NCBI GenBank assembly: GCA_028291985.1
Contig: JAQGNE010000069.1
Coordinates: 1 to 64,000, forward strand
Origin: Polaromonas sp.
GTDB taxonomy: Bacteria > Pseudomonadota > Gammaproteobacteria > Burkholderiales > Burkholderiaceae_C
Direction of reading: 5' to 3'
Length of the DNA: 64,000 nucleotides
Made by a program: the position numbers and the translations under genes. The notes below the pieces were generated by a model. The model saw nothing but the letters and a program-made list of their open reading frames with translations, had not been told where the DNA came from and did no database searches. Positions 52,247-53,284 of the stretch are shown piece after piece (within the stretch, counting starts at the first letter, position 1; every line of letters begins with the position of its first letter).

Positions 52247-53215
52247 TCAAGCGTAGTCGGCCAAGACTTTTTTCATCTTTTTCATGGCCGCCACTTCGAT
52301 TTGGCGAATCCGCTCAGCGCTTACCCGGTACTCAGCCGCAAGGTCATGCAGGGTCATTCCGCCCGAGCCATCGTCATTCACCTTCAACCAGCGCTCCTCG
52401 ACAATGCGGCGGGAACGTGCATCTAGGTCGTCAAGCGCGGCCGTAATGCCGTCGCTGGCCAGGTTGTCACGCTGACGTGATTCCATCAAAGCAGTCGGCT
52501 CCTGGGTGGCGTCTGCAAGATAGGCAATCGGGCCAAATGCTTCTTCACCATCGTCGCCGGGTGTCGGGTCCAGCATCACGTCGCCACCTGACATCCGCTG
52601 CTCCATCTCGATAACTTCTTCGCGCTTCACATTCAGCGTTCGGGCCATCGAGTCAATTTGACCTTCTGTAAGGCTATCGCGATGGGTTGCCACTTCAGCA
52701 TCATCCTTGAAGCCCTGCTTCATGGACCGGAGATTGAAAAACAGCTTGCGCTGCGCCTTGGTAGTAGCAACCTTGACCATACGCCAGTTTTTCAGGATGT
52801 ACTCATGCATCTCTGCCTTGATCCAGTGCAGGGCGTAGCTGACCAGCCTGACACCCTGATCAGGGTCAAACCGCCTGACTGCTTTCATCAAACCAATATT
52901 GCCTTCCTGAATCAAGTCGCCATGCGGCAATCCGTAGCCCAGGTATTTGCGCGAGGTCGAGACCACCAACCGGAGATGGGACAGCACCAGCTTTTCGGCG
53001 GCTGCCAGATCATTGTTTTCCTTGAGTTTGCGAGAAAACTCCTGCTCTTCCTGAAGAGTCAGCATCGGTAGCCTGTTAACGGCTGAGATGTACGCGTCCA
53101 GATTTCCCAAAGGTGGCAGAAGCGACCACGGGTTGATCGCAGCCACAGCGTTTCCGTTATCGTCCACAGCCCGTATGGCGGTGGTCGAATTCGGACGTGT
53201 AAGAGCATAAGACAT
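52247..53215 (-). CDS. rpoH: RNA polymerase sigma-32 (heat-shock sigma factor)
   Basis: 322 aa from the ATG at 53215 with AAGGAG 7 nt upstream; the track start at 53284 is in the operator region and is rejected. Region 2 is GDLIQEGNIGLMKAVRRFDP and VSYALHWIKAEMHEYIL. The RpoH box AQRKLFFNLR identifies sigma-32 specifically, and region 4 ends LHDLAAEYRVSAERIRQIEV. It drives chaperone and protease genes. A perfect CIRCE operator lies 30 bp upstream of the start, so HrcA control is predicted. Confidence 0.97.
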   Translation of the reverse strand: MSYALTRPNSTTAIRAVDDNGNAVAAINPWSLLPPLGNLDAYISAVNRLPMLTLQEEQEFSRKLKENNDLAAAEKLVLSHLRLVVSTSRKYLGYGLPHGDLIQEGNIGLMKAVRRFDPDQGVRLVSYALHWIKAEMHEYILKNWRMVKVATTKAQRKLFFNLRSMKQGFKDDAEVATHRDSLTEGQIDSMARTLNVKREEVIEMEQRMSGGDVMLDPTPGDDGEEAFGPIAYLADATQEPTALMESRQRDNLASDGITAALDDLDARSRRIVEERWLKVNDDGSGGMTLHDLAAEYRVSAERIRQIEVAAMKKMKKVLADYA

Positions 53216-53244
53216 ACATAAACTCCTTGGTTCGAGGTCAAATG

Positions 53245-53271
53245 TTAGCACTCCCTTTGATAGAGTGCTAA
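53245..53271. promoter_or_regulatory. CIRCE operator (HrcA-binding site) upstream of rpoH
   Basis: Exact TTAGCACTC-N9-GAGTGCTAA, the textbook CIRCE. It covers the proposed -10 box of the rpoH promoter. Confidence 0.95.
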
Positions 53272-53284
53272 ACAAAAGGTTCAA
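53257..53284 (-). promoter_or_regulatory. Candidate promoter of rpoH overlapping CIRCE
   Basis: On the minus strand TTGAAC (53284-53279) and TATCAA (53262-53257) are 16 nt apart. The -10 hexamer lies inside the CIRCE spacer, so bound HrcA would block polymerase. Confidence 0.5.

Follow-up and report, generated by a model that had tools for sequence, protein, structure and literature searches.

A perfect copy of the CIRCE element precedes rpoH, the minus-strand gene for the heat-shock sigma factor sigma-32, in the Polaromonas sp. DNA analyzed here, a 64-kb stretch referred to below as the window. The motif scan of the window returned an exact match to TTAGCACTC-N9-GAGTGCTAA with no mismatches at 53245-53271, the full sequence being TTAGCACTC-CCTTTGATA-GAGTGCTAA, and no further CIRCE at up to three mismatches. 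The downstream gene was identified as rpoH by the TIGR02392 rpoH_proteo equivalog model (384 bits against a cut-off of 323), which agrees with the preliminary description of this locus, where a perfect CIRCE at rpoH had been reported. That description had extended the feature to position 53284; the CIRCE part of its span stands, but the last 13 bp do not belong to CIRCE and hold the likely -35 sequence TGAACCT. The start codon of rpoH is the ATG at 53215, separated from CIRCE by 29 bp. A longer open reading frame with a TTG start at 53284 was rejected as the rpoH start because this ATG has a good Shine-Dalgarno sequence. The probability that the repeat is a chance palindrome close to rpoH is negligible, given that no CIRCE occurred in 100 dinucleotide-preserving shuffles of the window and that the rpoH CIRCE was kept in all 36 genomes examined.

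Table 1. Features of the rpoH upstream region in the window, with putative promoter elements
Feature	Position	Strand	Basis
rpoH, heat-shock sigma factor sigma-32	52250-53215	-	TIGR02392 equivalog above cut-off
Shine-Dalgarno AAGGAG of rpoH	53223-53228	-	direct sequence reading
Putative extended -10-like TGC-TAACAT (CIRCE right arm plus conserved CAT)	53242-53250	-	NAT conservation; presumed function
CIRCE operator TTAGCACTC-TATCAAAGG-GAGTGCTAA, read in the rpoH direction	53245-53271	-	exact consensus; one of two sites in the genome
Putative sigma-E-like -10 TCAAA within the CIRCE loop; spacer to TGAACCT 16 bp	53256-53260	-	register of relatives
Putative weak -35-like TTAGCA, formed by the CIRCE left arm; spacer to TAACAT 18 bp	53266-53271	-	direct reading
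Putative sigma-E-like -35, decayed, TGAACCT; GGAACTT in the register of relatives	53277-53283	-	Comamonadaceae-like rpoH promoter alignment

Only two CIRCE elements were found in the 3.58-Mb Polaromonas assembly (97% complete) at up to three mismatches, one at rpoH and the other at groES-groEL. The preliminary description had called for a genome search for hrcA and other CIRCE sites, and had named a genome lacking hrcA as one case in which its reading would fail; an intact hrcA is present, and the one further CIRCE is that at groESL. The hrcA gene encodes 339 aa and lies on the same contig just past the window (contig positions 67,535-68,554), about 14 kb from rpoH and, as judged by eye, divergent from an apparent NAD kinase gene. 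Its product matches the TIGR00331 equivalog model (295 bits against a cut-off of 197) and is related to Thermotoga HrcA 1STZ (E = 1.5e-20). The same genome scan at up to three mismatches detected no CIRCE at hrcA itself or at grpE, and the grpE promoter region contains a sigma-32 box, CTTGAAA-N13-CCCCAG. The two CIRCE sites and the grpE gene without one therefore give a predicted direct HrcA regulon of groESL and rpoH, with grpE-dnaK predicted to be under RpoH and outside this regulon.

The same two-site regulon recurs throughout Burkholderiales, an order that in the GTDB sense includes nearly all betaproteobacteria and was sampled with 300 genomes. CIRCE at up to two mismatches was found in 264 of them, with exactly two sites in most (about 220), and hrcA was likewise present in 264. 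Both were found in 258 genomes and neither in 30, while six had hrcA only and six CIRCE only (Fisher p = 1.9e-29 for co-occurrence); completeness is below 90% in eight of the 12 discordant genomes. Thus, hrcA and CIRCE are lost jointly across the order. When the sites of 36 Burkholderiales genomes were assigned to genes, all 75 fell into two classes without exception, 36 at rpoH and 39 at groESL. Sixteen Burkholderiales genomes have only one CIRCE at up to two mismatches, which belongs to groESL in nine of them and to rpoH in six; the remaining genome lacks hrcA, and its CIRCE resembles a chance match.

At the class level, 126 further families of GTDB Gammaproteobacteria, a class that includes the beta lineage, were each represented by one genome with a clear rpoH. 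An rpoH CIRCE at up to two mismatches was found in 86 families, perfect in 48, and its presence followed that of hrcA (78 of 90 families with hrcA vs 8 of 36 without, p = 7e-12). The carriers include Variovorax, Pandoraea, Nitrosomonas, Polynucleobacter, Woeseiaceae and Dyella, among others; the element is absent from the sampled records of Pseudomonas, Acinetobacter, Haemophilus, Halomonas and Enterobacterales. E. coli, which served as a control in the hrcA search, lacks hrcA. At up to three mismatches, exceptions occur in both directions: nine genomes, several of them incomplete, have an rpoH CIRCE and no hrcA, and seven with hrcA have no rpoH CIRCE (G411, G331, G371, G325, G419, G336 and G312). 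In the latter seven, hrcA may have been retained after rpoH dropped out of HrcA control.

CIRCE elements were also observed near other genes. One perfect copy (L246:1501-1527, G228:C7:12120-12146), the third site in its genome, lies about 200 bp from a gene with a KilA-N domain, which is common in phages, and neither rpoH nor groES is close to it on that contig. A copy with one mismatch (L247:1501-1527, G082:C38:2852-2878), with neither rpoH nor groES nearby, is located about 25 bp before an unassigned 388-aa open reading frame without a Pfam match.

The promoter elements around CIRCE differ between the two targets. In gene-oriented alignments, the groESL sites are preceded by a sigma-32-type box, CTTGAAA-N14-CCCTAT, which ends at the CIRCE edge, and the operator therefore covers the likely start site. 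This box is absent at rpoH, and a sigma-32 promoter there, implying autoregulation, was rejected. Immediately after CIRCE, 105 of 121 rpoH sites have the triplet NAT, vs none of 39 groESL sites (p = 1e-24), although the rpoH loci share ancestry and neither this count nor those of the other promoter motifs below represent independent events. Outside Burkholderiales the NAT is weaker (51 of 86 families). An extension of the HrcA palindrome by NAT was considered and rejected, because the mirror-image ATN occurs on the left flank in 0 of 121 sites and the groESL sites lack NAT. Rather than by HrcA symmetry, the conserved NAT can be explained by an extended -10 element, TGC-TAANAT, with TTAGCA 18 bp upstream. 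The Polaromonas elements of this kind match the extended -10 consensus of sigma-70 (TGn-TATAAT, with a -35 at about 17 bp) at 8 of 12 positions, and no promoter was called between 53180 and 53600 by a plain sigma-70 consensus scan with a threshold of 9/12.

Upstream of the rpoH CIRCE, the sigma-E -35 motif GGAACTT occurs within 60 bp at 37 of the 121 loci, where 0.7 were expected from shuffles, and upstream of the groESL CIRCE it was found at none. Its registers are mostly fixed at -25, -29/-30 and -44/-45 from the CIRCE centre; with a 16-bp spacer, the TCNAA -10 falls in the CIRCE loop, draws on the terminal TC of the left arm or stops immediately upstream of CIRCE. In three loci of one family (L016, L019 and L050, family f18), the -35 is a variant that reads GGCACTT instead of GGAACTT and is followed by TCTAA at a distance of 15 bp. 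The pattern is clear in many relatives of Polaromonas, whose own TGAACCT has two mismatches to GGAACTT in this arrangement (16 bp, TCNAA), and a decayed sigma-E-type promoter is plausible there. The genome encodes rpoE (TIGR02939, 257 bits against a cut-off of 236). The rpoH promoter assignment and start site are thus ones that we infer from sequence patterns; on either reading, CIRCE overlaps the likely -10, as had been suggested initially, with the sigma-E-like -10 in the loop and the extended -10 in the right arm.

The arrangement is less unusual than initially assumed, as it occurs in most betaproteobacterial relatives and many gammaproteobacteria, and a perfect CIRCE 51 bp before rpoH of Geobacter sulfurreducens was listed as a prediction in 2004 (Rodionov et al. 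2004, PMC545781, Table 8). HrcA control of rpoH is therefore not a new idea. The G. sulfurreducens system resembles that of Polaromonas in the exact operator consensus before rpoH and in groESL as a constant regulon member; however, G. sulfurreducens is a deltaproteobacterium and its hrcA-grpE-dnaKJ carries CIRCE, unlike the Polaromonas set. For beta-, gamma- and epsilon-proteobacteria, a passage of the same paper cites Permina & Gelfand 2003. In the open-access literature searched, a CIRCE before rpoH was stated only in PMC545781, and HrcA is not treated in PMC5343134. The rpoH NAT and the overlap of sigma-E elements with CIRCE were not found described in that literature. Going by its title, the 2003 study by Permina and Gelfand covers these lineages and CIRCE, and it may already list rpoH. 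In RegPrecise, rpoH is reportedly included in betaproteobacterial HrcA regulons.

The Bacillus subtilis HrcA/CIRCE regulon (dnaK and groE operons) shares the operator and the TIGR00331 repressor family with Polaromonas, but B. subtilis has no sigma-32, whereas in Polaromonas the operator is placed at the gene for a sigma factor, no CIRCE was found at hrcA, and grpE-dnaK would depend on sigma-32. The E. coli rpoH promoter region includes a sigma-E-dependent promoter, and a putative sigma-E-type promoter is likewise seen at rpoH in many relatives of Polaromonas; E. coli lacks hrcA, whereas in beta- and many gammaproteobacteria the sigma-E-like -10 overlaps CIRCE.

We consider it very probable that 53245-53271 is a genuine HrcA operator, with HrcA presumed to bind it, over the rpoH promoter in a GroE-HrcA-RpoH circuit. 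The earlier proposal that HrcA represses rpoH gains good support from comparison, namely from the two-site regulon, the conservation at order and class level and the tracking of hrcA presence. Selection on the rpoH site is indicated because it is conserved near-perfectly across the order and lost with hrcA. This pattern also weighs against a relic, to which HrcA still binds while other promoters and post-transcriptional control set the main rpoH output. Such a reading, which we regard as unlikely, draws on the lack of a strong sigma-70 promoter by consensus and on the single-site genomes where a good CIRCE is kept solely at groESL (9 of 16), but in 6 of 16 the best site is the one at rpoH. Still less likely is that the inverted repeat works chiefly at the RNA level, as a leader hairpin of rpoH that acts in mRNA stability or as a thermosensor, instead of as an HrcA operator. 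The CIRCE stem does fold at -16.8 kcal/mol (z = -2.4); however, the exact sequence is kept beyond pairing, with arm positions 92-100% constant, CIRCE vanishes along with hrcA, the ribosome site is outside the hairpin, and CIRCE would lie outside the transcript altogether if the extended -10 reading holds.

With CIRCE as an HrcA operator, GroEL/ES in unstressed cells would fold HrcA and maintain its activity, and HrcA would occupy CIRCE at rpoH and groESL and block polymerase; at rpoH, both promoter readings place the -10 and the spacer under the bound repressor. Misfolded proteins occupying GroE, or heat inactivation of HrcA, would then derepress rpoH and groESL together. The added sigma-32 would drive transcription of groESL from the sigma-32 promoter adjoining CIRCE and of grpE-dnaKJ from a sigma-32 promoter without CIRCE, and the replenished GroE would reactivate HrcA and close the loop. 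The circuit is likely to combine coherent feed-forward with GroE-dependent negative feedback. The activity of B. subtilis HrcA depends on GroE, and from this analogy we infer the GroE sensing step. The effect of derepression on the sigma-32 level could be small because translation, stability and binding by chaperones contribute to the control of this sigma factor in other bacteria.

Overall, the rpoH CIRCE is a true, well-supported and widespread element that is at least partly described already, and the remaining interest lies in the merged promoter-operator. In beta- and many gammaproteobacterial rpoH genes CIRCE might be built into the promoter, so that HrcA would gate both sigma-E and housekeeping transcription at a 27-bp element, a tentative reading that we hold to be possible. 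The left CIRCE arm would provide the TC of the sigma-E -10 and the right arm the TG-TA of the extended -10. If this is true, envelope stress and the GroE status of the cytosol would be combined by AND-NOT logic in the input to sigma-32. Textbooks tend to treat HrcA/CIRCE and sigma-32 as alternative heat-shock strategies; in Polaromonas and most sampled families of the class, the two appear to be connected in series, with the repressor acting on the sigma-factor gene and both acting on groESL. Control of sigma-32 is known mostly from E. coli, which is not representative in this respect because it lacks hrcA. The fused promoter-operator would offer a concrete site for studying how envelope and cytosolic folding stress are integrated.
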